A DNA stretch of 23,497 nucleotides, taken from IMG/VR virus record IMGVR_UViG_3300038468_000135, positions 1-23,497 of that record. The stretch is one strand, 5' to 3'. This stretch comes from a virus. A model generated the notes under the pieces. It ran no database searches. It was not told the DNA's origin and worked only from the letters and a program-made list of their open reading frames with translations. The position numbers and the translations under genes were made by a program. This document shows positions 2-22,617 of this stretch, one piece after another (the first letter of the stretch is position 1; every line of letters starts with the position of its first letter).

Positions 2-73
2 GCGCTATACAATGTCAAGGGAAAAAGTGACTATTTTTTCGATTGCGGGAATATGCAACTAAGGCCGGTTTGA
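2..73 (+). CDS. 3' end of an unidentified ORF, probably the preceding integron cassette
   Basis: One frame is open from the window edge for 23 codons and stops with TGA at 71-73, three bases before the attC-like site at 76. The visible C-terminus ends NMQLRPV and I do not recognise it. Its position matches an integron cassette, where the ORF usually ends at or just inside its attC site. A 16-codon ATG frame (12-62) overlaps it, so the choice of frame is uncertain. Confidence 0.35.
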   Translation, partial: ALYNVKGKSDYFFDCGNMQLRPV

Positions 74-75
74 GG

Positions 76-129
76 GTCTAACGCGAGCGTCACACTCGCG
101 TAGCGTAGTTGTGGACGCAGTTGTTAGCG
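76..129. other. attC-like integron cassette recombination site (copy 1)
   Basis: The left end GTCTAAC (76-82) fits the R'' consensus RYYYAAC, and the right end GTTAGCG (123-129) holds the invariant GTT of R'. After a 3-nt spacer, AGCGTCAC (86-93) pairs with GTGGACGCA (111-119), leaving one unpaired G, as in the L''/L' boxes of attC sites. A second 3-nt spacer (120-122) precedes R'. The central part (94-110) is variable. R'' and R' are not fully complementary. This is expected in an array, because R'' belongs to the upstream cassette and R' to the downstream one. Confidence 0.75.
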
Positions 130-145
130 TCCGGGAAGGATTAGC

Positions 146-406
146 ATGAAGTGCAATTTTTGCGGAGAATGTACAGAATGTGCAAGCAGAATGATGCGAA
201 TCCGGAATTTTGTCTATGCGGGAAAGACGCTGTGCGTGAAGTGCCCTTCGTGTGGGCATCCAAACGATCTCGGGAAAGAACGCTTGATCCAATATGACTC
301 GCCTGCTCCTTTTGTATTTGAGCATGAGTGCGCGGTATGCGGTAGAGTATTCGACATGCGGGATACCCATGAGGCAGATTATAGCGTGATAGATATGAGA
401 CGCTAA
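146..406 (+). CDS. Small zinc-ribbon protein on a putative gene cassette
   Basis: This 86-residue protein has four Cys pairs: C3/C6, C9/C12, C33/C36 (with C30 nearby) and C62/C65. That spacing suggests a two-site zinc ribbon or knuckle. An AAGGA ribosome binding site lies just upstream of the ATG. The stop codon TAA (404-406) sits inside the R'' box of the second attC-like site, which is typical of cassette ORFs. If recombination occurs after the first G of each GTT, the cassette runs from 124 to 454, about 331 bp. Base composition is clearly more AT-rich than the phage genes that follow. I do not recognise a family; a nucleic-acid-binding or metal-binding role is only a guess. Confidence 0.7.
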   Translation: MKCNFCGECTECASRMMRIRNFVYAGKTLCVKCPSCGHPNDLGKERLIQYDSPAPFVFEHECAVCGRVFDMRDTHEADYSVIDMRR

Positions 407-460
407 CGCTTGCGTCACGCGCAAGCCGAAGGCGTGACGCTGTGGACGCATTTGTTAGCG
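401..460. other. attC-like integron cassette recombination site (copy 2)
   Basis: CGCTAAC (401-407) is the exact reverse complement of GTTAGCG (454-460), and the pairing extends outward by GA/TC to nine base pairs. After 3-nt spacers on both sides, TGCGTCAC (411-418) pairs with GTGGACGCA (442-450), leaving one extrahelical G (444). This is the attC L-box hallmark. The variable centre (419-441) overlaps an alternative 9-bp hairpin, GCGTCACGC (412-420) with GCGTGACGC (432-440). The two copies agree in geometry and in the L box but differ in the centre, as attC sites do. Confidence 0.78.
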
Positions 461-502
461 TCCAGAAAGGATTAGCATGAAGTGCAATTTTTGCGGAGAA
501 TG
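442..502 (+). repeat. 61-bp direct repeat of 111-171 (cassette start duplicated)
   Basis: Positions 442-502 match 111-171 at all but about three bases. The repeat covers the attC right half, the ribosome binding site, the ATG and the first nine codons (MKCNFCGEC). After 502 the two copies diverge completely and the second continues into phage-type sequence. This marks 502/503 as the junction between cassette-array DNA and the prophage. Confidence 0.85.
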
Positions 503-560
503 CCTCAAGCCCCGGACCGACGTGGCCAGCCCGCTCGACACGCTCAGGAGGGCGGCATGA
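477..560 (+). pseudogene. 27-codon chimeric ORF: cassette start joined to sequence upstream of gemA
   Basis: The first nine codons repeat the start of the 86-aa cassette protein. The remaining eighteen come from the GC-rich stretch before gemA and end LDTLRRAA. Its stop overlaps the gemA start as ATGA (557-560), so it could couple translation into gemA. It is either the truncated remainder of a cassette gene or the end of a former phage gene given a new start by the junction. A free-standing function is unlikely. Confidence 0.5.
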
Positions 561-1141
561 ACACATCACCGAAAACCAACTACGACCAGAAGCGCGCGAG
601 GCTGATCAAGATGGTCCATATCGCCGCGAACGAGCTGGGACTCCTGAATCCCAAGCGGCATGAGACCGATCCGGATGATGAATACCATCTCCTGCTCCGG
701 CAGTGGAACCGGCCGGGGACCAGACAACCGGTGACGTCGTCCACCCAGATGAGCACGGCGCAGCTTGGGGAGCTCTACCGGCACATGAAGCGGCTGGGGT
801 TCAGGGTGCGGCGCAGAGAGCAGAGCGCAGAGCGCAGAGAGTCAAAACCCCATGCGCCAAGCCCTATGCGCTATGCCAGCAGCCTCCAGGGCCTGCGCGA
901 GGAGATTGTGGACCTGGCGAAGCAGCGCTGGGGCGCGGATAGATCATGGGAACAGCCCTTGAATAATTTCTGCCGGCGCTTCGGGATATCAAAATGGCAG
1001 TGGCTGGATGTAGCGCACGGCAAAGAAGTGAAGGCGGCGATCATCCGATTGCGGAATGCGGAATGCGGAATGCGGAATGAAAATCAAACAGGCGCCACAG
1101 AGAGCACAGAGGACACAGAGAAAGACGAGGTCCCGTTCTGA
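557..1141 (+). CDS. gemA: GemA-like (Mu gp16, DUF1018) regulatory protein
   Basis: The 194-residue product resembles Mu GemA/gp16. It has an N-terminal basic helix (KRARLIKMVHIAANELGL), a Y-x-x-LL-x-x-W segment, a TSSTQMSTAQLGELYRHMKR segment, and a C-terminal part with FCRRFGISKWQWL. I chose the ATG at 557 rather than the in-frame ATG at 482 because AGGAGG lies seven bases upstream and it overlaps the preceding stop. In Mu, gemA precedes mor in the middle operon and affects host gene expression; here mor is two genes downstream. Two oddities stand out. A heptamer repeat element is embedded in frame at about residues 86-107, between the two halves. The C-terminus (about 165-192) is entirely encoded by two more repeat arrays. 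Confidence 0.85.
   Translation: MNTSPKTNYDQKRARLIKMVHIAANELGLLNPKRHETDPDDEYHLLLRQWNRPGTRQPVTSSTQMSTAQLGELYRHMKRLGFRVRRREQSAERRESKPHAPSPMRYASSLQGLREEIVDLAKQRWGADRSWEQPLNNFCRRFGISKWQWLDVAHGKEVKAAIIRLRNAECGMRNENQTGATESTEDTEKDEVPF
813..877 (+). repeat. Composite heptamer element inside gemA
   Basis: Four GCAGAGN units (813-840) are followed by a 9-nt spacer and four degenerate CTATGCN-type units (850-877). The same two-part composite occurs in reverse complement at 18749-18814. It is translated as an RREQSAERRES-type linker in GemA. Confidence 0.85.
1050..1122 (+). repeat. Two short tandem arrays encoding the GemA C-terminus
   Basis: TGCGGAA is repeated four times perfectly at 1050-1077. The 9-bp unit CACAGAGNN is repeated three times at 1096-1122. 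Both lie in frame at the end of gemA and give low-complexity residues (NAECGMRNE, then ATESTEDTEKDE), so they have lengthened the protein without breaking it. Confidence 0.9.
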
Positions 1142-4712: not shown

Positions 4713-5057
4713 ATGACCGACGTATTTGCCCAAGCCTTGGCCGCCGTGATCCAGTACCTCGGACCGTATCCCATTCTGCTGACGATCGTGCTGTTGGTTC
4801 TCGCGCCCTGGGGCGCCATGGTCTGGCTCAGCTACAAGCAGGACAAGCGGCTCAGTAAAGTGTTTGAACGCCAGGACAAACAATTTGCCGACGTGGTGCA
4901 GATGTACAAGGACAACGTCGTGTTGTGCGAACGGTATGATCACCACTCCGGAGAACAGGCCAAAATCACCTCGAACCTCCAGGACCTGGTGATCCTGACG
5001 ACATCCACCATGCAGAGCCTCGTGGACCATATCAAGGGTGCACGAAGCAATGGTTGA
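4713..5057 (+). CDS. DUF2730-like membrane protein (Mu gp25 position)
   Basis: The 114-residue product has a membrane segment at about 20-41 (PILLTIVLLVLAPWGAMVWLS). A long helical, probably coiled-coil tail follows (KRLSKVFERQDKQFADVVQM and onwards). This length and layout match the DUF2730 proteins that lie between lysis genes and terminase in Mu-like phages. A GAGGTGATCGC leader provides the ribosome binding site. The role is unknown, possibly lysis or packaging accessory. Confidence 0.6.
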   Translation: MTDVFAQALAAVIQYLGPYPILLTIVLLVLAPWGAMVWLSYKQDKRLSKVFERQDKQFADVVQMYKDNVVLCERYDHHSGEQAKITSNLQDLVILTTSTMQSLVDHIKGARSNG

Positions 5058-5066
5058 GGAGGACGC

Positions 5067-5306
5067 ATGAGCCAAGCGGACGTAATCAGACAGGGCGACA
5101 TCAAAAAGCGGCGGCTGGCGCGCTCGATGGCCCAGGCGGAAGCGAAGACGGCGCTGCGGTTTTTGATCAACACGGCCACCGCTGCTTTCGGCAAGCCGGT
5201 CGAGGAAATCAATACCGCCGAGCTCACCGCGCATCTGGAACAGCTCGTGGCAAAACAGGAAGAAATCAAACAGCTCGACGCGGAGATCAACGACCTGGAA
5301 CGGTAG
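5067..5306 (+). CDS. Hypothetical 79-aa helical protein
   Basis: GAGGAC lies just before the ATG. The product is almost wholly helical and charged. Its N-terminus is basic (QGDIKKRRLARSMAQAEAKT) and its C-terminus is a probable coiled coil (LEQLVAKQEEIKQLDAEIND). Its place between the DUF2730-like gene and the terminase matches Mu gp26, for which I know no firm function. No enzymatic motif is visible. Confidence 0.6.
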   Translation: MSQADVIRQGDIKKRRLARSMAQAEAKTALRFLINTATAAFGKPVEEINTAELTAHLEQLVAKQEEIKQLDAEINDLER

Positions 5307-5313
5307 AGGTAAG

Positions 5314-5340
5314 TTTTCTCTGCGTCCTCTGCGGTGAAAT
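5314..5340 (+). repeat. Short 9-bp tandem repeat before the cold-shock gene
   Basis: CTCTGCGTC and CTCTGCGGT are adjacent in a longer TTTTCTCTGCG...GGTGAAATTT element between the preceding stop and the AAAGGAGG of the cold-shock gene. Confidence 0.6.
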
Positions 5341-5354
5341 TTAAAGGAGGCATC

Positions 5355-5555
5355 ATGGCAACGGGCACGGTCAAATGGTTCAACGACGCAAAGGGCTTCG
5401 GCTTCATCACCGGCGACGACGGCACGGACTGTTTCGTGCACTACAGCAACATCCTGGGCCGCGGCCACCGGACGCTCGCCGACGGCGCGCGGGTTTCCTA
5501 CGACGTGGCGCAGAAGCCCAAGGGGCCCCAGGCGGAGAACGTGGAAGCCCTCTAA
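5355..5555 (+). CDS. Cold-shock domain protein (CspA family)
   Basis: The 66-residue protein is a full-length CSD. It opens MATGTVKWFNDAKGFGFI, which contains RNP1 (KGFGFI). RNP2 follows (CFVHYSNI), and it ends GPQAENVEAL. These aromatic and basic residues bind single-stranded nucleic acid, and the family acts as RNA chaperones or antiterminators. AAAGGAGG lies six bases before the ATG at 5355, which fixes the start. Its presence within the late operon of a Mu-like phage is unusual and suggests a host-derived moron. RNP2 starts with Cys rather than the usual Val or Leu. Confidence 0.9.
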   Translation: MATGTVKWFNDAKGFGFITGDDGTDCFVHYSNILGRGHRTLADGARVSYDVAQKPKGPQAENVEAL

Positions 5556-5556
5556 G

Positions 5557-5612
5557 GGATGCAGGATACAGGATGCACGATTTGGATCATGCATCATGGA
5601 TCATGAATCATG
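5557..5612. repeat. Heptamer array with opposing halves before the small terminase
   Basis: GGATGCA, GGATACA and GGATGCA units (5557-5577) are followed by GATCATG/ATCATGN-type units that run into the start codon. The two halves are partly complementary, for example GATGCA (5572-5577) with TGCATC (5590-5595). The array appears to have replaced the usual ribosome binding site of the next gene. It belongs to the same family as 21672-21733 and 22554-22617. Confidence 0.8.
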
Positions 5613-6137
5613 ACCAACCACACCAAAAAGCGCCGGCATTCGAAGTTCTTCTCCTTTCCTCCGGAGATCCAGGAGCAGGTAAAAGCGCTCCTGATCGAAC
5701 CCACCACGACCTATGACGACGTGGTGCAGTTTCTCAAGAGCAAGGGCTATGACTGGTCGGACTCGGGCGTCGAGCGGTTTTCGAAGTGGTTCTTCAACGA
5801 GATCCGCGAGACCGAGATGCTCCGGGACCAGGCGGCGCTCCTCCTGAACGAGCCCGAGCGGGCGTTGGAGCTCGAAAAACTCACGGCCACGATGATCACG
5901 AAGCGGCTGGCCATGGCCATGCAGCAGGATGACTTCAGCGTCCTGAAGCACGCCAAGATCATCGACGCCTTTGCCAAGCTGCAGAGGTCGAGCACGCAGC
6001 GGGAGCAGTACACGGCGGAGGTCCGGACAAGGGTTGCCAGGGCCGCGGAGAGCGTTGCAAAGATCGCAAAGAGCAAGGGCCTGACCGCCGACACGGTGAG
6101 CCAGATCAAGGACAAGATTCTGGGTATCGGAAAATGA
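5610..6137 (+). CDS. Small terminase subunit-like, DUF3486 (Mu gp27)
   Basis: The 175-residue product matches the DUF3486/gp27 family. It opens with basic residues, RHSKFFSFPPEIQEQVKALL, which is typical (lp-x-ei-x-x-v-x-x-ll). YDDVVQFLKSKGYDWSDSGV follows as a helix-turn-helix-like segment, then FSKWF and a long helical C-terminus. The start codon emerges from a heptamer array with no clear ribosome binding site. The stop overlaps the large terminase start (ATGA). Its expected role is to recognise the phage end and regulate the large subunit during headful packaging. Confidence 0.8.
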   Translation: MTNHTKKRRHSKFFSFPPEIQEQVKALLIEPTTTYDDVVQFLKSKGYDWSDSGVERFSKWFFNEIRETEMLRDQAALLLNEPERALELEKLTATMITKRLAMAMQQDDFSVLKHAKIIDAFAKLQRSSTQREQYTAEVRTRVARAAESVAKIAKSKGLTADTVSQIKDKILGIGK

Positions 6138-7666
6138 CCGACGTGATCACGCTGGACAAACTGAAGTCCCAGGCGAACGACGGCGTCCTCCTCGGCTATC
6201 AGAGGAGATGGGTCGCAGACCCGGCCGTTGTAAAGGTTTCGGAAAAGTCGCGCCGGATCGGCCTCACCTGGGGGGAAGCCGCGGACGACGTCCTGATCGC
6301 CTCCGCCGAGGACGGCATGGACGTGTTCTACGTCGGCTACAACAAGGACATGACGCGGGAGTATATCGACGAGTGCGCGTCCTGGGCCAGGCATTACAAC
6401 CTCGCCGCCTCGGAGGTCGAGGAGTTCATATTCAAGGACGAGACGCCCGACGGCGACAAGGACATTCATGCCTTCCGCATCGACTTCGCCTCGGGCTTCA
6501 AGATACTGGCGCTCTCCTCGCGGCCCTCGAACCTGCGAGGCAAACAGGGCGTGGTGGTGATCGACGAGGCCGCGTTCCACGACGACCTCGACGGCCTCAT
6601 CAAGGCTGCGATGGCGTTCCTGATGTGGGGCGGCAAGGTGCGGATCATCAGCACGCATTTCGGCGAAGGCAACGCCTTCAACCTTCTGATCAACGAGATC
6701 CGCAAGGGCCGCGTGCCGTACAGCCTGCACCGCGTCACCCTCGACGACGCCATTGCCGAAGGGCTGTACAAGCGGATCTGCCTGCGGCTGAAAAAGGACT
6801 GGACCGAGCAGGAAGAGGCGGCCTGGCGCGAGCAGATCATCAAGTCCTACAAAGAGCACGCCGACGAGGAGCTCTTCTGCATTCCGTCCAAGGGCAGCGG
6901 GATCTATTTCACGAGCGTCCTCGTCGAGAGCTGCATGAAGAAGGACATCCCGGTCCTGCGCTGGCGCTGCCCGGACGGGTTCGACCAGCTCCCGGACGAG
7001 GAGCGCAGGAAGACCTGCCAGGACTGGCTCGACCTCGGAGTGGCGCCCCTGCTCATCGGGCTCGACGAGAAACAGTTCCACTGGTTCGGCGAGGACTTCG
7101 CCCGGGACGTGGACCTCACGGTCATCCTGCCGCTCGGCAGGAAAAAGGACCTCAGCCTCCGCGCGCCCTTCGTCATCGAGCTGGCGAACGTCCCCTTCCG
7201 CCAGCAGGAGCAGATCCTCTTCTTCGTGTGCGACCGGCTCCCGAACTTTCATGGCGGCGCCATGGACGCGCGCGGGAACGGCCAGTACCTCGCGGAAGTG
7301 GCGATGCAGCGCTACGGCGCGGACCGGATCCTCCAGGTCATGCTGACCCGCGAGACCTACCGGGACGCGATGCCGAAATATAGAGTCCGGTTCGAGGAGC
7401 ACACCATCGAGCTGCCAGCGGACGCGGACATCCTGGAAGATCACCGGGCCGTGCGCATGGAGAAGGGCGTGCCGCTCATCTCCGACGTCCGGCGGCCCGG
7501 GCAGGAAGGCGGCAAGCGCCACGGCGACGCGGCAGTGGCCGGCATGCTCGGCGTCCACGCCGTCGAGAAGATCGCCTGGGGCCCGGTGGAGTACGAGACC
7601 GTCGCCTCCCGCTCCGGCATCGGCATGGAACGCTCTCATCTGGGCGGCCGGAGGGGCGCATGGTAG
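6134..7666 (+). CDS. Terminase large subunit (Mu gp28-like)
   Basis: The 510-residue product is the packaging ATPase-nuclease. The ATPase part includes a Walker A-like motif at residues 39-47 (SRRIGLTWG) and a Walker B, VVVIDEAAF, at 140-148 with its catalytic Glu. A coupling-type motif, VRIISTHFGEGN, follows. The C-terminal RNase H-like nuclease part shows an early acidic site in WFGEDFARDVDLTVI, then GGAMDARGNG and a final GGKRHGDAAVAGML. The Walker A lacks the usual Gly-Lys-Ser/Thr pattern, as in other terminases that use a degenerate P-loop. Length is in the normal range. It is coupled to the small subunit by an ATGA overlap. Confidence 0.93.
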   Translation: MTDVITLDKLKSQANDGVLLGYQRRWVADPAVVKVSEKSRRIGLTWGEAADDVLIASAEDGMDVFYVGYNKDMTREYIDECASWARHYNLAASEVEEFIFKDETPDGDKDIHAFRIDFASGFKILALSSRPSNLRGKQGVVVIDEAAFHDDLDGLIKAAMAFLMWGGKVRIISTHFGEGNAFNLLINEIRKGRVPYSLHRVTLDDAIAEGLYKRICLRLKKDWTEQEEAAWREQIIKSYKEHADEELFCIPSKGSGIYFTSVLVESCMKKDIPVLRWRCPDGFDQLPDEERRKTCQDWLDLGVAPLLIGLDEKQFHWFGEDFARDVDLTVILPLGRKKDLSLRAPFVIELANVPFRQQEQILFFVCDRLPNFHGGAMDARGNGQYLAEVAMQRYGADRILQVMLTRETYRDAMPKYRVRFEEHTIELPADADILEDHRAVRMEKGVPLISDVRRPGQEGGKRHGDAAVAGMLGVHAVEKIAWGPVEYETVASRSGIGMERSHLGGRRGAW

Positions 7667-7776
7667 CGCAAAAAATCAAAGCAAGTTTGACAAAGTCGCA
7701 TTTTGGCGACAGGACGAATCGAAAATAAGCCCTCCGTTGCAGGAAGCGGCGGGGATGTATTGCACTAGGGGTCGTC

Positions 7777-7893
7777 ATGCGAACGTACCCCGTTTATGAA
7801 TGCGATGAGGGCTATAGGATGAGACGCGAACAGAGGCACTCAGAATTCGATTTTCGGTTTTATCCGTGTTCATCCGTGTTCATCCGTGGCTAA
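7777..7893 (+). CDS. Doubtful 38-aa ORF before the portal gene
   Basis: This ATG frame gives MRTYPVYECDEGYRMRREQR and then runs into the 10-bp repeat, whose last unit supplies the stop region. An AGGGG tract lies just upstream. Nothing recognisable is present. Because the C-terminal third is repeat-encoded, it is more likely a chance frame or a truncated gene. Confidence 0.2.
   Translation: MRTYPVYECDEGYRMRREQRHSEFDFRFYPCSSVFIRG
7861..7890 (+). repeat. 10-bp tandem array before the portal gene
   Basis: TATCCGTGTT, CATCCGTGTT and CATCCGTGGC are in tandem and end 12 bases before the portal start. AAAGAGG follows directly and is the likely ribosome binding site. Confidence 0.9.
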
Positions 7894-7902
7894 AGAGGAT
7901 TT

Positions 7903-10179
7903 ATGGCGCTCGTCGACCAGTACGGAAAGGAAATCAAGAGCGGCAAACCCATCCTGGAGAAGATCGCGGTCCAGACCGTGCGGGACCGCTACAGCTCCTA
8001 CCCCTCCCAGGGCCTCACGGCCGAGCGGCTCGCCACGATCCTGAAGGAGGCGGACCAGGGCTATGTGTTCCGCCAAGCCGAACTCTTCGAGGAAATGGAG
8101 GAGAAGGACGGCCACCTTGCCTCCGAGCTCCAGAAGAGAAAGCTCGCCGTGGCCGGCCTCGAATGGGAAGTGCAGCCTGCGTCGGAATCCGCCGAGGACA
8201 AGAAGATCGCCCTGGCCGCGAAGGAGATGCTGGGCTACATCGGCTCCTCGCTCGACGCGGATGAGGACCTGGACGGCTTCGACGGCGCGCTCACGGACAT
8301 CATGGACGCCGTGGGCAAGGGGTTCTCCTGCGGCGAGATCGTGTGGGACATGTCCGAGGGCCAGGTGTGGGTCGACTCGATCAACTACTGCCACCCCAAG
8401 AAGTTCACATTCAACGGCCGCCCCGAAAACCAGACCGGCGTCGTGACCGCGGGCCTCGGCAGGCTCCTCGGCTATCCCCGGCTCATCACCGACGCCGAGC
8501 CGGTCTGGGGCGAAGAGCTGCCGCCGAACAAATTCGTCTTCTTCCGGCACAAGGCCCGGTCCGGCGCGACATCGCGCGGCGGGCTCCTGCGGCCCTGCGC
8601 CTACCTGTACTTGTTCAAGAACTACGACATCAAGGACTGGCTCGTGTTCAACGAGCTCTTCTCCGTGCCCATGCGCGTGGGCAAGTACAAGCCCGGCGCC
8701 ACCACGGACGAGATCGAGAAGCTCAAGCAGGCCGTGTTCAACCTGGGCGTGGACGCCGCCGCGGTCGTCTCCGAGTCAACGGTCATCGAGCTCCTGGAGT
8801 CCGCCCAGCGGACGCAGAGCTCCGGGTTCAAGGACCTGGCCGAGTTCTGCGAGAAGACCCAGACCAAGGTCATCCTCGGCCACACGGGATCAAGCGAGGG
8901 CACACCCGGGAAATTGGGCAGCGAGGATCAGGCAAAGGAATTGCGGCAGGACCTCAAGAAGGCCGACGCCAAGGCGCTCGAGCGCTGCGTGCGGCTCAGG
9001 CTCCTCGGCCCCTGGACCATGTTCAACTACGGCCCGGACGCGGCGGTGCCGAACTTCAAGCTCCAGTACGAGCAGGGCGAGGACCTGGAAAAAACCTCCA
9101 AGGTCTACGCCGCCCTCGTCCGCGACATGGGCTACGATCAGATCCCCGTCTCGCATGTGCAGGAGAAGTTCAATCTCCCCGCGCCCAAGGAGGGCGAGCC
9201 CACGGTGAAGCCGCCGCAGCCGGCAAACCCCTTCGGGAATATGACCGCAGAGGACGCGGAGGGCAACGACAAAAAGGCGATGCAACAGAACAGGCGCTGC
9301 GCCTGCGGGCAGATACACAAATCCGCAATCCGCGCCCAGCATCCGGCCCTCGATCTCCAGCTCCACGCCGACCAGGACTGGATCGTCGAGTACCTGCGCC
9401 GCATCGAGCCCGCGCTCAAAGGCGCGAAAAAATCCGCCCTGGACGAGATCGGACGCTGGCTCGCGGAGCAGGCCGAGCCGCCCTCCCAGGCGGAGTTCAC
9501 CGCGAAGATCCAGGAGATACTGGGCGCGGCATACGGGAAGATCGATCAGGCCGCGGTCAGGGACGCCGTCGCCGACATGTACCGCTACTACAAGACGAGC
9601 CTGCCTGCGGGCAGCGCCGTCGTCTCCTTCGGCGGGGCCGACGCCCGGTCCGTGGCCTTCCTCGCGGACGTGGACCGGATGTTCTTCTCCAAGTTCGTGA
9701 AGAACCCCGAGGCAGAGGCGGCCATCACCGATTTTCTGAACGAACGGTATCTCAAGGGCGGAGAGGGACTCTTCGGCAGGGGAAATCCGGAGACGATCGC
9801 CGAGCTCAAGGACCTCCTCTCCCAGAAGATGACCGACGTGTCCGGCAGCCAGGTGAACAGGATCGTGGACACCAGCGTCCAGCGGATCCGCAACTGGGCG
9901 CACATCTCCCGTCTCTCCGACGCGGCCGTGCCCGAGGTGGAGGTCTACGAGCCCACGCAGGACTGCCCCTTCTGCGTCGCGGTCCACGGCAAGGTGGTCC
10001 GGGTCGAGGCCGCGGCGGCGAAGATGAGCGAGTACCGGGACATGGACCCCGCGGACTACGCGGAGCACCTGAAGCAGAACCCCGCGCTCTCGGAGAACGT
10101 GCTCGATTTCGTGGCGCGGGGCGAGCTGCCGCCCTACCATCCCCATTGCCACGGCAGGGTGATCGTGAGGACGAAATAA
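7903..10179 (+). CDS. DUF935 portal protein fused to MuF minor head protein (Mu gp29+gp30)
   Basis: A single 758-residue ORF covers two Mu genes. Residues about 1-440 resemble the DUF935 portal. They include YVFRQAELFEEMEEKDGHLA, ELQKRKLAVAGLEWEV, GRLLRPCAYLYLFKNYDIKD-like text (as RGGLLRPCAYLYLFKN), FNELFSVPMRVGKY, and HVQEKFNLPAP near the end of the portal part. Residues about 640-758 resemble the MuF minor head domain: QVNRIVDTSVQRIRNWAH, CPFCVAVHGKVV and a final PPYHPHCHGRVIV. The linker carries a possible CAC-x-H cluster (RCACGQIHKSAIRAQH, about 464-480). Frame and domain order are intact, so this is a true fusion rather than a frameshift. The portal sits at the packaging vertex; MuF proteins are minor capsid components, sometimes delivered as cargo. 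Confidence 0.9.
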   Translation: MALVDQYGKEIKSGKPILEKIAVQTVRDRYSSYPSQGLTAERLATILKEADQGYVFRQAELFEEMEEKDGHLASELQKRKLAVAGLEWEVQPASESAEDKKIALAAKEMLGYIGSSLDADEDLDGFDGALTDIMDAVGKGFSCGEIVWDMSEGQVWVDSINYCHPKKFTFNGRPENQTGVVTAGLGRLLGYPRLITDAEPVWGEELPPNKFVFFRHKARSGATSRGGLLRPCAYLYLFKNYDIKDWLVFNELFSVPMRVGKYKPGATTDEIEKLKQAVFNLGVDAAAVVSESTVIELLESAQRTQSSGFKDLAEFCEKTQTKVILGHTGSSEGTPGKLGSEDQAKELRQDLKKADAKALERCVRLRLLGPWTMFNYGPDAAVPNFKLQYEQGEDLEKTSKVYAALVRDMGYDQIPVSHVQEKFNLPAPKEGEPTVKPPQPANPFGNMTAEDAEGNDKKAMQQNRRCACGQIHKSAIRAQHPALDLQLHADQDWIVEYLRRIEPALKGAKKSALDEIGRWLAEQAEPPSQAEFTAKIQEILGAAYGKIDQAAVRDAVADMYRYYKTSLPAGSAVVSFGGADARSVAFLADVDRMFFSKFVKNPEAEAAITDFLNERYLKGGEGLFGRGNPETIAELKDLLSQKMTDVSGSQVNRIVDTSVQRIRNWAHISRLSDAAVPEVEVYEPTQDCPFCVAVHGKVVRVEAAAAKMSEYRDMDPADYAEHLKQNPALSENVLDFVARGELPPYHPHCHGRVIVRTK

Positions 10180-10619
10180 TGGAATTCCGGATATCCATGA
10201 CGCCGGACATCGAGGACATGGTCAAACGCCTGGGAGAGGACGTGGAGGCCGGGCTCGTTGCCGGCATGACCAGGGCCGTGGGCGCGCTCGAGGCGGAGGT
10301 CGTCGGGGAGGCCCCGGTCGTCACCTCGAACCTCGCGAACTCGGTGACGAGCGAGGTCGACCCCGATGGCCGGCGCGGCGAGGTGCGGGTCCAGGCGGGA
10401 TACGGCATCTACGTCCACGAGGGCACGGGCCTCTACGGCCCGGAGAAGAAGAAGATCACCCCCAGGACCGCGAAGGCGCTCAAAACGCCCTACGGCCCGA
10501 GAAAGAGCGTCAAGGGCCAGAAGCCCAACCCCTTTGCCCAGCGCGCCCTGGAAGCGACCGACATCCAGGCAGAGTTTGCGCGGGGCCTGGGGGACTATCT
10601 CAAAAGCAAAGGATGGTGA
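10179..10619 (+). CDS. HK97 gp10-like / virion morphogenesis protein
   Basis: A 146-residue product whose ATG overlaps the portal-MuF stop (TAATG). The pattern fits HK97 gp10-like neck proteins: an N-terminal helix (DIEDMVKRLGEDVEAGLVAG), a beta region GEVRVQAGYGIYVHEGTGLY, and a C-terminal PNPFAQRALEAT-type end. In Mu this position is held by gpG-type virion morphogenesis proteins. Its likely role is head-tail joining. There is no clear ribosome binding site, so expression probably depends on coupling to the fusion gene. Confidence 0.7.
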   Translation: MEFRISMTPDIEDMVKRLGEDVEAGLVAGMTRAVGALEAEVVGEAPVVTSNLANSVTSEVDPDGRRGEVRVQAGYGIYVHEGTGLYGPEKKKITPRTAKALKTPYGPRKSVKGQKPNPFAQRALEATDIQAEFARGLGDYLKSKGW

Positions 10620-10623
10620 TGCT

Positions 10624-11943
10624 ATGCCCTACGACATCAAAAATCCGCCCGACGTGATCCGGATGCTCCCGCCCCATGCGCAGGAGATGTGGATCTCCGC
10701 CTTCAACGAGGCATCGAAGGACACCCCCGGCGACGAGGGCAAGTGCGCCGCGATCGCCTGGGCCGCGGTCGAGCGCGAGTACAAGAAGGACGAGCGCGGC
10801 AACTGGGAGAAGATGGGCGAGCCGACGATGAACCGCAGCATGTTCTGCCTGCACGACCTGGCGGGCGTAGCGCCCGCCGAGGTGCAGCTCGCCCCCTACG
10901 GCACGCACCGGACGCCCAAGTACGGGATACTCCTCGTGGATGACGAATCTCTCGGGTCCGTCATGGCGCACGCCGCAGAGCAGGCGAACGACCGCGTGAT
11001 CGATTATGAGCACCAGACCTTTGCCGAGCCGCCCGTGATCGCGCCGGCGGCCGGATGGATCAAGAAGCTCGTGAACAGGGGCAAGGACGGCGTCTGGGGG
11101 ATCGTCGAGTGGACCGAGAAGGCGCGCCAGATGATTGCGAACCGGGAGTACCGCTACCTCTCCCCCGTGACGCTCACGCGCAAATCGGACGGCAAGGTAC
11201 TGGCCATCCTGGGCGCGGGGCTCACCAATATGCCCAACATCGACGGCATGGTGCCGCTCGTGAACAAAGCCGGACTTCCGGAGGGATCCGGGGGCCGAGC
11301 AAACAAGGAGGAACCTATGTGGAAAGAGCTGCTGAAGCTGCTCGGGCTTCCTGAGGACGCGACGGAAGCGGCCGCCATGACGGCGGTCAACAATCTGAGA
11401 GGGGGGCTCGCCTCTGCCCAGCGCATCGTGGCCAACAAGGCCGTGCTCGCCGCCCTGGGCGTGGCCGAGGCGGCGGGCGAGGCCGAGGTCGTCGTCACGA
11501 TCAACAACCTCAAGGCCGGGAACCAGATCGTGGCGAACAAGAACGTGCTCGACGCCCTGGGAGTAAAGCCCGACGCCCCGGAGAGCGAGGTCGTGGGCAC
11601 CATCATGGCGATGCGCCAGGCCCACGCCAACATCGGCGAGCTGACCTCCCAGGTGAACACGCTCAACTCCGACATCACGAAGCGCAACGCCGACGAGCTC
11701 GTCGAGATGGCCATGAAGCAGGGCAAGATCACCCCGGCGCAGAAGGACTGGGCGCTCCAGAGCGCGCGCAAGGACCCCGAGGGCTTTAAGGTATTTCTGA
11801 ACAAGGCGCCCGTGGTCGTGCGGTTCGACAGGGTCGCGGGCGAGGAAGAGGCCGCGGACCGGCTCGATGAGACTCAGGTCAGCGTCAACCGGCTCCTGGG
11901 CGTCACCGACGAGAGCTGGAAGAAGCACCACAAGGTGGCGTAA
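10624..11943 (+). CDS. ChaB domain fused to Mu I-like prohead protease/scaffold
   Basis: The 439-residue product has an N-terminal ChaB-like domain at about 4-62 (PPDVIRMLPPHAQEMWISAF, then CAAIAWAAVEREYKKDERGNW). The Mu I-type protease region follows at about 70-225. It includes HRTPKYGILLVDDES, VIDYEHQTF, APAAGWIKKLVNRG, REYRYLSPVTLTR and a TNMPNIDGM end motif. The C-terminal third is a helical, Ala-rich scaffold. In Mu, protein I is the protease and its C-terminal part, made separately as Z, is the scaffold. The catalytic residues cannot be assigned from one sequence. The ChaB extension is not part of Mu I itself. Confidence 0.88.
   Translation: MPYDIKNPPDVIRMLPPHAQEMWISAFNEASKDTPGDEGKCAAIAWAAVEREYKKDERGNWEKMGEPTMNRSMFCLHDLAGVAPAEVQLAPYGTHRTPKYGILLVDDESLGSVMAHAAEQANDRVIDYEHQTFAEPPVIAPAAGWIKKLVNRGKDGVWGIVEWTEKARQMIANREYRYLSPVTLTRKSDGKVLAILGAGLTNMPNIDGMVPLVNKAGLPEGSGGRANKEEPMWKELLKLLGLPEDATEAAAMTAVNNLRGGLASAQRIVANKAVLAALGVAEAAGEAEVVVTINNLKAGNQIVANKNVLDALGVKPDAPESEVVGTIMAMRQAHANIGELTSQVNTLNSDITKRNADELVEMAMKQGKITPAQKDWALQSARKDPEGFKVFLNKAPVVVRFDRVAGEEEAADRLDETQVSVNRLLGVTDESWKKHHKVA
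11317..11943 (+). CDS. Internal in-frame start: scaffold protein (Mu Z-like)
   Basis: Inside the protease gene a perfect AAGGAGG (11305-11311) lies five bases before an in-frame ATG at 11317. It would give a 208-residue protein that begins MWKELLKLLGLPEDATEAAA. It holds repeated IVANK-x-VL-x-ALGV units and a predicted coiled-coil segment (HANIGELTSQVNTLNSDITK). This reproduces the I/Z arrangement of Mu, where the scaffold is the C-terminal part of the protease gene translated on its own. The strong ribosome binding site at exactly the domain boundary is the main evidence. Confidence 0.8.
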   Translation: MWKELLKLLGLPEDATEAAAMTAVNNLRGGLASAQRIVANKAVLAALGVAEAAGEAEVVVTINNLKAGNQIVANKNVLDALGVKPDAPESEVVGTIMAMRQAHANIGELTSQVNTLNSDITKRNADELVEMAMKQGKITPAQKDWALQSARKDPEGFKVFLNKAPVVVRFDRVAGEEEAADRLDETQVSVNRLLGVTDESWKKHHKVA

Positions 11944-11995
11944 AAAAACAACCACGGGCGCTTAGCGCTCACGGGCAAAAACAAGGAGGCTCTTC

Positions 11996-13012
11996 ATGAG
12001 CAAGACGAAGAAGAAAAGGCTTTTCAGGTTCGGATTGATCGGGCTGGCCGTGCTGGCGTTCGCCTGCCTGGTCATGATGGGATTCATTGACCCGGCGGCC
12101 GCGGCGCTCTACGGCGGGCTGCCGCTCATCGGGTTCGCCGGCGCCCTCTCCGCGGACCGCGACACCCCGCAGCGCATCGAGGGCACGCTCAACCTGGGCG
12201 TCGCAACCGCGAAGAAGATTTACGCCGGCGCCCTCGTCATGCGGAGCGCCACGGGCTACGCCACTCCCGGCGCCGCGGCCACGGGATGCGTGGGCCTGGG
12301 CCGGGCCGCCGAGCAGGTGGACAATACCTCCGGCGCCGACGGCGCGAAGTCCGTCAACATCGACCGCGGCATCTTTCGCTTCGCCAACAGCGCCGCAGGC
12401 GACGCCATCGCCGACGCGGACATCGGCAAGGAGTGCTACATCGTCGACGACCAGACCGTGGCCAAGACCGACGGCGGCGGGACGCGCAGCATCGCGGGCA
12501 GGATCTTCGACGTGGACTCCTCGGGCGTCTGGGTCGAGTTCGCGATCGTGCCCCGGCCCGCCACGGTGGGCAGCGGCGACATGGACGCGACCCTCATCAA
12601 ATACGCCACGGTCAACCTCACCAACGCGGAGATCAAGGCCCTGCGCGCCACGCCCAAGGAGCTCGTGGCGGCCCAGGGCGCGAACAAGGTGGTCGAGTTC
12701 GTGTCCGCCCTGCTCATGCTCAACGCCGGCACGAACGTCCTGACCGAGTCCGCGGACAACCTGGCCGTGAAGTACGAAAACGGCTCCGGCGCGGCCGTCT
12801 CCCAGGCCGTCGAGACGACGGGCTTCATCGACCAGGCCGCGGACACCGTGACCTCGGCGCTCCCGAAGATCGATGCCATCGCGGCCCTGGCCAACGCGGC
12901 CAACAAGGCCCTCGTGCTGCACAACACGGGCGACGGCGAGTTCGCCGGCAACGCCGCGAACGACGCGATTCTGGTGGTCAAGGTCGCGTACCGGGTGCAC
13001 GACCTCTCGTAA
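11996..13012 (+). CDS. Head decoration-like protein with N-terminal membrane/signal segment
   Basis: The 338-residue product has three parts. Residues 1-37 are a basic N-terminus and a hydrophobic segment (RFGLIGLAVLAFACLVMMGF) ending in DPAAAA, like a signal peptide. Residues about 50-190 resemble capsid cement or decoration proteins: RDTPQRIEGTLNLGVATAKK, then GLGRAAEQVDN, IDRGIFRFANS, GKECYIVDDQTV, AGRIFDVDSSGVWVEF. Residues about 203-338 form a second domain also seen in phages (LTNAEIKALRATPKELVAA, VLTESADNLAVKYEN, KALVLHNTGDGEFAGNAAND). AAGGAGG precedes the ATG. Position before gpT fits a structural role. The signal-like N-terminus is odd for a virion protein assembled in the cytoplasm. 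Confidence 0.7.
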   Translation: MSKTKKKRLFRFGLIGLAVLAFACLVMMGFIDPAAAALYGGLPLIGFAGALSADRDTPQRIEGTLNLGVATAKKIYAGALVMRSATGYATPGAAATGCVGLGRAAEQVDNTSGADGAKSVNIDRGIFRFANSAAGDAIADADIGKECYIVDDQTVAKTDGGGTRSIAGRIFDVDSSGVWVEFAIVPRPATVGSGDMDATLIKYATVNLTNAEIKALRATPKELVAAQGANKVVEFVSALLMLNAGTNVLTESADNLAVKYENGSGAAVSQAVETTGFIDQAADTVTSALPKIDAIAALANAANKALVLHNTGDGEFAGNAANDAILVVKVAYRVHDLS

Positions 13013-13025
13013 CGACTGACCCGTA

Positions 13026-13047
13026 GGGGCGGCCCCGTTGCCGCCCC
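13026..13047. repeat. GC-rich hairpin before the major head gene
   Basis: GGGGCGG (13026-13032) pairs perfectly with CCGCCCC (13041-13047) across an 8-nt loop, preceded by GTA. Only GAATTT follows, so it is a poor terminator. It may be a dispersed palindromic repeat or an mRNA processing or stability structure between the decoration and major head genes. Confidence 0.6.
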
Positions 13048-13076
13048 GAATTTCCGTCCCCAGGAGGACACTAATC

Positions 13077-13955
13077 ATGATCATCAATCAGGCATCACTC
13101 ACGGCGCTCTACAAGAGCTTCCAGACCATCTTCAACGAGGCCTTTGCCGGGGCCGATACGTTCTGGAGCCGCGTGGCCATGCGCGTCCCTTCCATGACGA
13201 AGGAAGAGGTCTACGCCTGGCTCGGCGCGTTCCCGAAGATGCGCGAATGGATCGGCGACCGCGTGATCCAGAACCTCGCGCTCTCGAACTACTCCATCCT
13301 GAACAAGGAGTGGGAGCTGACCCTCTCGGCCAAGCGCACCGACATCGAGGACGACACCATCGGCGTCTACAACCCCATGATCGCCCAGATGGGCATGTCC
13401 ACGGCCCAGCAGCCCGACGAACTCATCGCGGCATTGATCGCCAGCGGGTTTGCCACCGCCTGCTACGACGGCCAGTACTTTTTCGACACCGACCACCCCG
13501 CGGGGAGCGGCACGGTCTCGAACTCCGGCGGCGGCGCGGGAACGGCCTGGTATCTCCTCGACGTCAGCAGGCCAGTCAAGCCCTTCATCTTCCAGGAGCG
13601 CAAGCCCACGGAGTTCATCGCCCTGGACAACCCATCGGATGCGAACGTGTTCCTGAAGAACCAGTTCGTCTACGGCGCGTACCGCAGGAACAACGCGGGC
13701 TTCGGCCTCTGGCAGCTCGCCTACGCGAGCAAGCAGACGCTTGACGCCGACGCCTACGCCGCGGCCCGGGCCGCCATGATGAGCTTCAAGGGCGACTCCG
13801 GCAAGCCCCTGGGCGTCCGACCGAACCTGCTCGTCGTGCCGCCCAGCCTCGAGGGCGCGGGACGCGGGATCCTCATGAACGAGCGCGACGCCTCGGGCGC
13901 CACGAACAAGTGGCGCAACACGGCGGACCTCCTGGTCACCCCGTGGCTGGCGTAG
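13077..13955 (+). CDS. Major head subunit, Mu gpT-like
   Basis: The 292-residue product matches the gpT family, normally about 300 residues. Diagnostic text includes LYKSFQTIFNEAFAGADTFW, EEVYAWLGAFPKMREWIGDR, the LSAKRTDIEDDTIGVYNPMI segment, DGQYFFDTDHP, and a C-terminal RPNLLVVPPSLEGAG-type segment. CAGGAGG lies about ten bases before the ATG at 13077, which begins the conserved domain. It forms the capsid shell. A REP-like palindrome and a terminator-like hairpin follow directly after its stop, which could limit expression of the next genes relative to this one. Confidence 0.93.
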   Translation: MIINQASLTALYKSFQTIFNEAFAGADTFWSRVAMRVPSMTKEEVYAWLGAFPKMREWIGDRVIQNLALSNYSILNKEWELTLSAKRTDIEDDTIGVYNPMIAQMGMSTAQQPDELIAALIASGFATACYDGQYFFDTDHPAGSGTVSNSGGGAGTAWYLLDVSRPVKPFIFQERKPTEFIALDNPSDANVFLKNQFVYGAYRRNNAGFGLWQLAYASKQTLDADAYAAARAAMMSFKGDSGKPLGVRPNLLVVPPSLEGAGRGILMNERDASGATNKWRNTADLLVTPWLA

Positions 13956-13979
13956 GGTAGCCGCAGGCTTCAGCCTGCG
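13955..13979 (+). repeat. REP-like palindrome, copy B
   Basis: GGGTAGC followed by a perfect 7-bp stem CGCAGGC (13962-13968) and GCCTGCG (13973-13979) with a TTCA loop. It begins at the last base of the gpT stop codon. It is the same element as 2223-2248 in the opposite orientation. Confidence 0.75.
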
Positions 13980-13991
13980 CAGATAATCGCA

Positions 13992-14019
13992 GGGCGGCCC
14001 TGGATGGGCCGCCCATTTT
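13992..14019 (+). terminator. Terminator-like hairpin after the major head gene
   Basis: GGGCGGCCC (13992-14000) pairs perfectly with GGGCCGCCC (14006-14014) across a 5-nt loop, followed by ATTTTC. The stem is strong but the T-run is short, so it may be a partial terminator. That would let transcription run on at a reduced level into gp35 and later genes. Confidence 0.65.
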
Positions 14020-14034
14020 CGAAAGGAGATCACC

Positions 14035-14214
14035 ATGCCGAAAGTATCCGTCAAAGCAGTCCCCGCAAACGGCTTCTACCGCGCGGGCATGAAGTTCACC
14101 CGCGAACCCCGGGTTGTCGATGTCGATGCAAAGATCCTGGCCGTCCTCAAGGCCGAGCCCATGCTCGTGGTCGAGGATGCGGGAAAAGACGACGTTGACA
14201 AAAAGAAAAAATAG
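14035..14214 (+). CDS. Mu gp35-like (FluMu N-terminal domain) small protein
   Basis: The 59-residue product has the pattern of the Mu gp35/FluMu HI1506-type domain: an aromatic GFYRAGMKFTREPRVVDV segment, then ILAVLKAEPMLVVED (compare 'L-x-x-DPML-x-V'). A charged tail follows. AAAGGAG lies nine bases before the ATG. It sits between gpT and, after the insert, gp36, exactly as in Mu. It is a head-tail joining accessory of unknown detail. The stop TAG forms part of the TAGGAGG ribosome binding site of the next gene. Confidence 0.75.
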   Translation: MPKVSVKAVPANGFYRAGMKFTREPRVVDVDAKILAVLKAEPMLVVEDAGKDDVDKKKK

Positions 14215-14223
14215 GAGGCCCCC

Positions 14224-14880
14224 ATGAAACTCAAATCCGTTTTGATTGTCTGTCTTCTGTCCTCTGTCCTCTGTCTTCTGTCTTCCGCGGCCCAGGCCGC
14301 CTGCACCCAGGCGATCTCCACCAGCGCCAAGGGCAACTGGCTCAGCGGGCTCTTCCAGAAGGGCGACACCTACAAGATCGCCTTCTACCAGACTGCCGCG
14401 ACCTGGGACGCCACGACCGCGCAGTACAGTGCCACGAACGAGATCACCGGCACGAACTACTCTGCCGGCGGCTACGCGCTCGATTCCCTCGCCTACGGGA
14501 CAAGCGGGACGACGTACTGGATGGATTTTGCCGACGAGGTCCAGAACAGCGTGACCTTCGACCAGGCGTCTACCTGCGCCGTCATCTATGACGACACTGC
14601 CGCGAACACGTCCTGCACGGGCGCCGGCGCTCCCTGGCCGTGCTGCTCCGGCGCCGGGGCGGGCACCTGCCAGGACGCGGTCCTGGGAGTCTTCACCTTC
14701 ACGTCCGTCCAGCCCTCGGCCGGGACGCTCACGGTCACCTTCCCGACCGCGGATGCCTCGAATGCCATCATCCGGATCGCCCGGGGCGCACTGGACTGGA
14801 TATTCCCCGAGGCCTGGGCCGGGGACCGGATAGACGCCTACATCGAGCTTTCCGGCATCGTGCTTGAGGCGAAGCAATAG
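14224..14880 (+). CDS. Secreted phage-associated protein with heptamer-encoded signal peptide
   Basis: The 218-residue product starts with MKLKSVLIV and a hydrophobic core CLLSSVLCLLSS, ending AAQA-AC, a standard Sec cleavage site. The core is encoded exactly by five heptamer units at 14251-14285. The mature part is beta-rich and resembles a type seen beside Mu-like tails and heads. It has WLSGLFQKGDTYKIAFYQTA, YSAGGYALDSLAYG, YWMDFADEVQNSVTFDQAS and a C-terminal FTSVQPSAGTLTVTFP, followed by NAIIRIA. A Cys-rich loop (CTGAGAPWPCCSGAGAGTCQ) may hold disulfides, in keeping with export. AGGAGG precedes the ATG. Function is unknown; surface or virion appendage is possible. Confidence 0.65.
   Translation: MKLKSVLIVCLLSSVLCLLSSAAQAACTQAISTSAKGNWLSGLFQKGDTYKIAFYQTAATWDATTAQYSATNEITGTNYSAGGYALDSLAYGTSGTTYWMDFADEVQNSVTFDQASTCAVIYDDTAANTSCTGAGAPWPCCSGAGAGTCQDAVLGVFTFTSVQPSAGTLTVTFPTADASNAIIRIARGALDWIFPEAWAGDRIDAYIELSGIVLEAKQ
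14251..14285 (+). repeat. Heptamer array encoding a signal-peptide core
   Basis: Five 7-bp units (TGTCTTC, TGTCCTC, TGTCCTC, TGTCTTC, TGTCTTC) lie in frame and encode residues 10-21 of the secreted protein. Confidence 0.92.
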
Positions 14881-14896
14881 GCGCACATGACCGCCG

Positions 14897-17800
14897 ATGA
14901 AAAGACTCGCCCTCATGCTCTGCCTCGCCCTCGCGCTGCCGGGGGCGGCCGTCGCCGCCCACACCTACGACACGCAGGGGACATCGGCCTCCTACGGCAC
15001 GGCGGACCCGCACACGATCTCCTACACCTGCGGCGCGGGCACGACGCTCCTGGTGCTCATGGTCGAGCACAACGCGCAGTCGCGCACGGGCGGGACGCCC
15101 ACCTACAACGGCGTCAACATGACGCAGGTGGGGACGGAGATCCGGAACGCCCAGGAGGTCGGCGTCGAGATGTGGTACATGCTGAACCCGCCCACGGGCT
15201 CGGCCTATGACATCGTCGTGCAGAACGATTTGCCCATCGATATGCGGATAACGGCAGCGTCATTCAAGGCGGGGAGCGGCTACGCCTCGGCGCTCTTCGA
15301 CTACGCCACGGACAACGTGGACAAGCAGAACACGTCGCTCACGGTGAGCAGCGTGCCGGCGGGCTCGGTCTGCCTCGACGTCCTGGGCCACGGCTACACG
15401 AACCCGCCCACGGCGCGGTCGCACACGCTCATCTACACCCACGACCCCGGCGCCCTGTCATTTGAGACGCAGTACGGGCTGATCGACTCGACCGGAGACG
15501 TCACGATGACGCACACGCTCGGCGGCTCCGATGACGTGGCGAACATCATGGCCTGTTTCGAGGAAGTGGCAAGCGGCGCGACCGTGAACCTGTCCGGCCA
15601 GGGGACTGCCGCCTCCCCCGGGACGCTCGCCGTCACCGCGGCCACGGACGGCACGGCAACGCTCTCCGGCGGCGCATCTGCGGCGACCGCGGGAAGCATG
15701 TCGATCGCCGGCGGCACGGGAGCGACGGCGGCGCTCTCCGGCAGCGGAGCGACGGCGACTGCGGGCGGGCTCACCGTGGCCGGAGGAGCATCGGCGGCCG
15801 TGACGCTCTCCGGGAAATCGATGGCCGCCTCCGCTGGGAACCCCGGGGCGCACGATACGCCGATGTTCGCCAGCCTCGATCCCCACGGCAGGGCGACGAT
15901 CACGACCGTCCAGGTCCCGTCCACCGGCATTGTCTGGAGCAAGCGCGTTCCCGGCGGCTCCTGGGTGCAGATCGCCTCAACGGGGGCGGGCGTGCAGTCG
16001 ATCGTGGACAAGCGGCCCACGAAGCACTACCAGTGGGTCGCCTACAGCGGCAGCGGCGCGATGGACCTCACCTTCACCGGGACCGAGTTTGCCATATTCA
16101 CGGCCCCCCGCGCGGACCAGTCAGGATACATCGACACGACGGTCGGGACCTCATCCACGTCAAATTCACTCACCGTCGGGCAAAAGACGTTCACGGTCGC
16201 CGCCGGGCTGCCGCTTACCATGGGGCAATCCCTGAAGATCTGCCGTACCGGGTACACGTCGGCGTATTTTTTCCGGGGGACGGTCAACTCCTATTCCGGC
16301 ACCACTCTGGTCGTCGACGTGACGAGCGTCTTCAGCACGGGGACCTACTCCGCATGGACTATCCAGACCCGGGAGAATTTCAACATCCCCGCCTCGGCGG
16401 TTGACCGCATTGATTGGGAGAACACTGTCGGCAAGCTTGTCTACGGCAGGAGCGGTCTCACGAACGAGGCCCACACGATGAACATCTGCCCGGTCGATAA
16501 CAGCGGCGGGCTGGAGTGGGATGGGGAGTCCTGGAATCCGGTTCCCTTCACCTCGGTCTACAAGGGCTACTGGTACTCCGATTTTTCATCGTCCTGGGGC
16601 GAGGAGATCGAATACAAGGCGGTGATCGACGGCGGGACGACCGAGACCGTCACGGTAACCCCGGTGGTCAACCGGGGGCTCGCCATCCAGTCCATCGTAG
16701 ATCGGCTAATCGCCGGAAACAGCTTCACGAACTACCCGGCGAACATGCAGCAGGTCACGCCCTGGTCGAATTACAACGAGATGATCGGGGTCGTGGCCTA
16801 TGCCTACTACATGACGCAAGACGCCCGGCTCGTGGGCATCGCCGAGGACATCTACGACGCCTATATCGCCAACAGCAACGGCACGACTGGCATCATCAAC
16901 GACCAGCCGGACTATCCGAACGGCCACCTGCTGGTGGACGGCCGTACAGCCTATAACTATTATTTCGCCTATCAGGTCTTCAATGATTCCCGCTACCTCG
17001 ACGTGGCGGACAAGATCGCCGGGACGCTGAGAAACAGTTGGAATAAAAACGGCTCGAACGTCTGGTATCCCGTCTCGAACGCATCGTCGGGACTCCCCGG
17101 CGTGCCGAACCACAGGACTGCGGCCAGCTACAGCCTGGCGCTTCTCTACAACGAGCCGAACTCGGACTGGTATCAGGATGCAACGGTCTCTACCATCCTC
17201 ATCGCCAACGCCGACTATGCCGTCAACGACGGCGTGAACGGAAGCCAGATCAACGTCTCGACCGGCGCGACGCGCTACGCGCCCGGCACGGATGCTACCG
17301 AAGAGCATTTGTATGGACAGTACGAATGGGAGCATCTCCAGTATATTTCCGATTCCTTCACATGGGAAGCCACACTCATCGGCAAGATGCGGGACTGGCT
17401 CGTCGATTCCTTCCCGTGGACCGAGCCGTACTTTTTCCGCTCGGAGTTCTATTGGATCCAGTCGAATGCTTTCGCCCTTTCGCGGGCCGCGGCGAAGTAC
17501 GTGAAGGACGGGACAATCCCGCAGGATTACATCAACACCCTCTATTCGGCGGCATTCGACACGATCCCCCTGACGAGCGCAGACAGCGGTTATGTGCCAG
17601 ACGGCACGGCCCAGTCCTCCGCGCCGATCAACGACATCGAGACGGAATGGCCCGACGGCGTGATCTTCAGCGGGTATGCCATCCCGGCGCTCCTCAACAA
17701 CGATGTCCCGAAGAACCTTTGGGCATGGGAAGGGCTGTTCAGCAATCCGGTTGTGACCTTCTTCGACCTTCCTGCCACGAGCAATTCGCTCACGGTCAAT

Positions 17801-21671: not shown

Positions 21672-21733
21672 CGATCCATGATTCATGATACATGACTTGT
21701 ATCCTGTATCCTGAATCGTGCATCCTGCATCTC
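21672..21733. repeat. Opposing heptamer array before the tail chaperone gene
   Basis: GATTCAT/GATACAT units (left) face ATCCTGN units (right). GATTCATGATACA on the left pairs with TGTATCCTGAATC on the right with one mismatch, so the element can form a long imperfect hairpin. It is the same family as 5557-5612 and 22554-22617. AAGGAGG of the next gene follows it. Confidence 0.85.
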
Positions 21734-22562: not shown

Positions 22563-22617
22563 TACATGATGCAGGTTTTAAATCCTGTATCCTGAATCCT
22601 GCATCCTGGATCGTTTT
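22554..22617. repeat. Opposing heptamer array before the tape measure gene
   Basis: GATGCAT, GATACAT, GATGCAG (left) face ATCCTGN units (right) around GTTTTAA. GATGCAGG (22568-22575) pairs with CCTGCATC (22598-22605). A TTTTT run follows and abuts the ATG of the tape measure gene, so the element also looks like a terminator or attenuator. No separate ribosome binding site is visible. Confidence 0.85.

Follow-up and report, generated by a model that had tools for sequence, protein, structure and literature searches.

Two attC sites and a reversed zinc-ribbon gene cassette at the end of a Mu-like phage contig, with a possible link to Nitrospirota

In 2023 Qi et al. described attC clusters and integrons in phages, together with IntI1 recombination of phage attC sites (PMC9892861). 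The phage CALINs described there hold at least two attC sites and small cassette genes, lack an integrase and have a border which is not integrase-made, and the locus presented here resembles them in these respects as far as its record reaches. It differs from them in that its cassette gene faces against the attC polarity and in that its array stands at a contig end. The locus thus belongs to a kind already known, the attC cluster associated with a phage, and what is new is the Mu-like carrier, the link to Nitrospirota and the reversed cassettes sharing a common leader. A preliminary description of this DNA had considered that no case of cassettes in such a phage was established; this can hold for Mu-like phages alone, and neither a Mu-like nor a Nitrospirota example of a phage attC cluster was found in the open-access literature searched, but it does not hold for phages at large after the 2023 report.

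The window, meaning the whole stretch of DNA analysed, is an entire linear IMG/VR record of 23,497 bases. Positions 1–502 form the array part, with a GC content of 0.44–0.50, and the phage part follows with a GC content of 0.64. The features of the array and of its border are, from left to right:

2–74, plus strand: 3' part of an ORF that the contig start truncates, with 23 codons visible and the stop TGA at 72–74, lying within a partial cassette left of site 1; read from the sequence, without an assigned family.
76–129, minus strand: attC site 1, with R'' CGCTAAC (129–123), an L'' with an extra C, R' GTTAGAC (82–76) and the expected cut at 82/81; found by both covariance models.
82–406, minus strand (attC polarity): complete cassette of 325 bp between the expected G^TT cuts, placed by the R-box positions; GC 0.50 against 0.64 in the phage.
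121–171, plus strand: first copy of the near-repeat, a leader with the ribosome-binding site GGAAGGA and first codons.
146–406, plus strand: zinc-ribbon-type protein of 86 aa with several CxxC motifs, antisense to attC.
401–460, minus strand: attC site 2, with R'' CGCTAAC (460–454), L'' TGCGTC[C]AC, R' GTTAGCG (407–401) and the expected cut at 407/406; found by both covariance models.
452–502, plus strand: second copy of the near-repeat, whose leader and first codons (MKCNFCGEC) are what remains of another cassette up to the phage border; 49 of 51 bases equal to 121–171.
477–560, plus strand: fusion ORF of 27 aa, MKCNFCGEC-LKPRTDVASPLDTLRRAA, whose stop overlaps the gemA start.
557–1141, plus strand: gemA of the Mu-like phage (Pfam GemA, E 9.9e-12).

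Through the 51-base near-repeat, each attC site is followed by a common leader with its ribosome-binding site and by the same initial codons.

Read on the plus strand, both sites follow the order R''-3nt-L''-centre-L'(extra G)-3nt-R', with AGCGTCAC or TGCGTCAC as L'', GTGGACGCA as L' at both sites and unlike centres, in agreement with the geometry first reported for them. The R boxes carry the CTAAC and GTTAG cores of the form RYYYAAC...GTTRRRY at both sites, and their outer bases (GTTAGCG, GTTAGAC) deviate from the strict consensus. R'' and R' pair over seven of seven bases at site 2 (nine including the flank) and over five of seven at site 1. In the same plus-strand naming, the R'' of site 2 (401–407) contains the stop of the zinc-ribbon ORF (TAA, 404–406) and is the complement of the R' at 123–129, which is not true of the R'' of site 1. 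The ends of the cassette fit an exchange between attC sites, as had been proposed from this pattern, and the R-box pairing sign holds in either orientation.

Two covariance models were built to score the sites. The first (R1) comprised 22 attC sites from annotated plasmid integrons and two environmental arrays; its training set included two loci, L019 and L021, fetched by a pattern derived from the window, and the second model (R2), made to remove this circularity, comprised 15 plasmid-only attC sites having no selection step in common with the window. R1 gave 28.2 bits to site 2 (E 7e-5) and 27.3 bits to site 1 (E 1.2e-4), the next-best place in the window reaching 13.2, while R2 gave 26.3 bits (E 1.1e-4) and 23.4 bits (E 5.8e-4) respectively, followed by 6.9, so that under both models the two sites outrank every other place in the window. 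Across 767,639 bases from 89 other viral loci the best R1 score was 13.7 bits and R2 produced zero matches. Since both models match and the viral null is clean, the sites are attC beyond chance, and this covariance check, of the kind that the preliminary description had suggested, upholds its claim that two attC-type sites flank a zinc-ribbon gene. DNA folding of the canonical bottom strand gave the attC hairpin a probability of 0.40 at site 2 and 0.27 at site 1, with 0.49 and 0.37 for the reference aadA1 and aadA2 sites. At site 2 the attC hairpin is the minimum-energy fold; at site 1 an alternative fold is slightly better. As far as sequence and predicted folding can tell, the two hairpins are confirmed as genuine attC sites.

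Integron integrases bind attC as a folded bottom strand and recombine it at G^TT. Both models match both sites on the minus strand; read on the plus strand, site 2 scores no more than 7.8 bits with R1. The minus strand has the extra base in L'' (TGCGTC[C]AC), the L' GTGACGC and 3-nt spacers; the extra G of the plus-strand L' is the extra C of the minus-strand L'', which is its canonical place in the training sites, and the extrahelical bases of L'' in a solved complex have the same canonical location (PMC3053210). Furthermore, in three integrons of Nitrospirota (G014:C128, G010:C12 and G010:C15) the strand reported by R1 matches the orientation of the integrase, and in another array (L188) all seven sites fall on one strand. 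Because the extra base is canonical only on the minus strand, the zinc-ribbon ORF runs against the attC polarity and the array, judged from these sequence features, runs leftward, which reverses the orientation implied at first.

In a typical cassette the gene lies in sense with attC at its 3' end; here the ORF is antisense. The array has two attC sites, as CALINs do, and neither an integron integrase nor any other tyrosine recombinase was found in the 23,497-base record, which begins 75 bases before site 1. Positions 82–406 are a real cassette, probably from a Nitrospirota integron. Its 86-aa product is a small zinc-binding protein, perhaps with a regulatory or anti-restriction role. Com-like and other named zinc-ribbon families were tried for it and gave only sub-threshold matches, one example being Lar, with 16.4 bits against a cut-off of 28.6. 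No close relatives of the protein were found in IMG/VR or in phage records.

From about position 503 rightward the window is a Mu-like phage, as previously described: Pfam families recognise GemA, Mor, a cell-wall hydrolase, Gp27, a portal and a Mu-like protease, a terminase is recognised via phage relatives, and the Mu-type head, portal, protease, GemA and Mor genes stand in order. Both phage ends are missing from the record, and so are the Mu early genes. A second IMG/VR contig (L008), 99.98% identical to window positions 4953–16937, confirms the phage and stops short of the join with the array. No close relatives of GemA were found in IMG/VR or in phage records. A related Mu-like prophage lies in a Nitrospirota genome (G018, contig C34), with a terminase about 50% identical, related portal, protease and head proteins, and zinc-ribbon (KLTCPACG...) and regulator genes upstream of gemA; unlike the window, it has its early genes and no attC. 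Low GC recurs in the phage at one further place only (0.51–0.53 in the 400-bp windows at 1801 and 2001), and a 90-aa ORF lies there, at 1960–2232; it has no family match and no attC, and is perhaps another recent acquisition. The last ORF of the record begins with ATCCTG repeats.

Across the join, the cassette remnant MKCNFCGEC reads on in frame into LKPRTDVASPLDTLRRAA. The 27-aa fusion ORF had zero matches in PHROGs. In the G018 prophage the gene directly before gemA ends in ...GTDVKSASPACRHWEVL, and the faint likeness of the two tails suggests, and no more than suggests, that the start of a cassette replaced the front of a native phage gene. No R box stands at the border (about 502/503), which means that the join was not made by an integrase. 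Of the earlier proposal that a cassette was inserted into a prophage, or that a phage joined an array by recombination, the integron cassette itself is borne out; insertion into a phage genome is not, given an array at the contig end and a border of non-integrase type.

The account that we hold to be probable, with moderate confidence, is that positions 1–502 are a piece of a Nitrospirota integron array joined to a Mu-like phage upstream of gemA by recombination other than that of an integrase. Under it, two functional-looking attC sites would bound one complete 325-bp cassette with cassette parts on either side, the source of the array would most likely be the chromosomal integron of a Nitrospirota host, and ordinary recombination through a cassette would have joined the array to the phage, the point of joining being just upstream of gemA. 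Array and phage would then make up a single molecule. An integrase supplied by the host could excise the cassette, shuffle it or add it to the host array via the folded plus strand. As the gene lies against attC, the integron promoter of the host array would not read it; being co-directional with gemA and having its own ribosome-binding site at the attC edge, it would be carried by phage transcription. Both expression and mobility of the cassette are thus predicted.

The position of the array at the extreme end of a linear contig counts against carriage by the phage, and the chief competing account accepts the attC array as real and denies that the phage is its carrier. The contig would then be a chimeric assembly, or a piece of host chromosome where a chromosomal cassette array is abutted by a decayed Mu-like prophage that has lost its left (early) end. 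The array is restricted to the first 502 bases, and the join coincides both with the end of the 51-base repeat and with a step in GC from 0.42 (453–502) to 0.72 (503–560). Moreover, Mu early genes, expected upstream of gemA and present in the G018 prophage, are absent from the record. The join is covered by no second record, either in an exact IMG/VR search of the phage side or among phage and plasmid records, and window positions 60–510 had no match in phage or plasmid records; hence a chimera, or a host array lying next to a decayed prophage, stays a distinct possibility, if not the probable one. On the other side, the ORF with which the cassette remnant is in frame has a stop that overlaps the start of gemA, and an assembler jump at this point would need a stretch of cassette shared by the phage itself. 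Mu-like phages have variable small genes just upstream of gemA, a region of this kind is present in the G018 prophage, and the array of the window lies at this location.

For joined array and phage, three weak to moderate lines point to a Nitrospirota host: a cassette type found in a Nitrospirae MAG, the G018 prophage, and short repeat motifs. A scan of one genome per species over 84,980 species brought up this combination of site type and leader in that MAG only (L016/L033). Looser attC relatives occur in other phyla (L017, L019 and L021), three further matches of the genome scan (L018, L020 and L022) look like chance, and exact pattern scans of IMG/VR with the L'/R' core returned coincidental matches only. 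As for the repeats, heptad- or octad-type short repeats (CACAGAGnnCACAGAG, GCAAAGnCGCAAAG, ATCCTGnATCCTG) occur in and between phage genes at 1096–1130, 1561–1585, 21701–21725 and 22582–22610. Those at 1096 and 1561 are shared with the MAG and its class (Nitrospirota loci L033 and L192), and none of the three motifs was found in 673 kb of other viral DNA. Against our preferred account count, besides the contig-end position, the border without an R box, the record without an integrase and the related Mu-like loci without attC, and also the result that searches of the MAG and its class gave no relative of the terminase.

In the MAG (WY3.bin154) the array spans L033 15323–16590 and is set in a chromosome, with no phage genes recognised nearby. 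Two tandem sites are each followed by a ribosome-binding site and a small ORF (86 and 62 aa) on the same strand. These ORFs are cysteine-rich and zinc-ribbon-like by eye, and they end in R''-like boxes. The likeness to the window comprises the L'' and L' boxes, the leader TTAGCGTCCRGRAAGG, of the same type as that at 121–171, and small antisense ORFs stopping in such boxes; the ORFs themselves are not homologous to those of the window. In the canonical direction the L033 array continues into a SUKH-family cassette in normal sense, followed by a third attC, which is weak (11.8 bits) and readable by eye. The short L033 site was reported by R1 and not by R2. The cassette DNA has a GC content of 0.475 against 0.60 in its surroundings. 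In the same MAG (L027 1501–1740, G001:C83) the last 71 codons of an integron integrase remain near the contig end, with unrelated DNA before them.

Across the class of the MAG, a long integron integrase match was present in nine of 14 genomes, against none of 14 control genomes. An R1 scan of the class was limited to 150 first-look candidates in each genome; as it failed to pick up the L033 site, its counts are incomplete. In sedentary chromosomal integrons of Nitrospirota (G005, G010, G014 and G016) R1 finds attC sites on one strand, as in the window, but these are of other sequence types. In two such arrays, moreover, the longest ORF was in sense in all eight cassettes checked. Since the cassettes of those two arrays lie in sense, the reversed leader-sharing cassettes form a distinct set, a small sample in which two contigs contribute three full cassettes and a single remnant. 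All reversed cassettes seen (L033 16075–16580 and window 146–560) encode small, cysteine-rich products that are zinc-ribbon-like by eye and unlike in sequence, the leader being common to them.

The shared leader also bears on an unlikely account in which the hairpins are not attC and are instead REP-type palindromes, or an RNA leader element, duplicated along with small zinc-ribbon genes. All four hairpin copies, two in the window and two in L033, are followed by the conserved leader with its ribosome-binding site and a small ORF, a transposase that by eye is of the REP-associated type lies 1 kb from the L033 array, and site 1 has the better alternative fold already mentioned. Yet attC models trained on plasmids match, with the extra base at its canonical place, the L033 array continues in the same polarity into the SUKH cassette and the third attC, and the R boxes vary between sites as those of arrays do. 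REP and REPIN sequences are known by many dispersed near-identical copies, whereas the core pattern occurs in the MAG in just two adjacent copies and gave three single, chance-like matches in 395 other Nitrospirota genomes. An Rfam search returned nothing notable, and both regulatory RNA leaders and REP palindromes were judged unlikely.

That the repeat belongs to an operon of small zinc-ribbon genes normally present in Mu-like phages is scarcely credible: the related G018 prophage does have zinc-ribbon genes upstream of gemA, but the attC models found no match above chance in it or in the other Mu-like relatives examined, where the repeat was sought as a possible refutation of the cassette reading, and window positions 60–510 have no counterpart in phage or plasmid records.

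If array and phage do form one molecule, as we favour, the locus adds to the signs that integron gene cassettes can be acquired by phages. Mu-like phages insert nearly anywhere, and one that carries cassettes would therefore offer them a plasmid-independent route between replicons and species. The reversed leader-sharing cassettes of the two contigs, in turn, suggest that cassette genes can be expressed without the integron promoter. Tentatively, and with more doubt than assurance, we propose that a Mu-like phage of Nitrospirota carries cassettes of this reversed, leader-sharing type which are expressed by phage transcription; such a phage would serve small zinc-ribbon cassettes both as a vehicle and as an expression platform, and a host integrase could still shuffle them.

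Two minor observations concern the class of the MAG. Several integron integrases (in G005, G007, G008, G009, G010, G014 and G015) lie in open frames of about 370–507 aa, compared with the 315 positions of the family model, which may reflect either an extra domain or an unusually long open frame. Near-identical attC-like sites, TCGTTCCACGCCGAC...GCGGCGTGTGAACTCGTCGTTAG, occur at four loci (L173, L175, L176 and L179, in G009, G006, G007 and G001 respectively), and may represent either a class-specific attC type or dispersed single sites.
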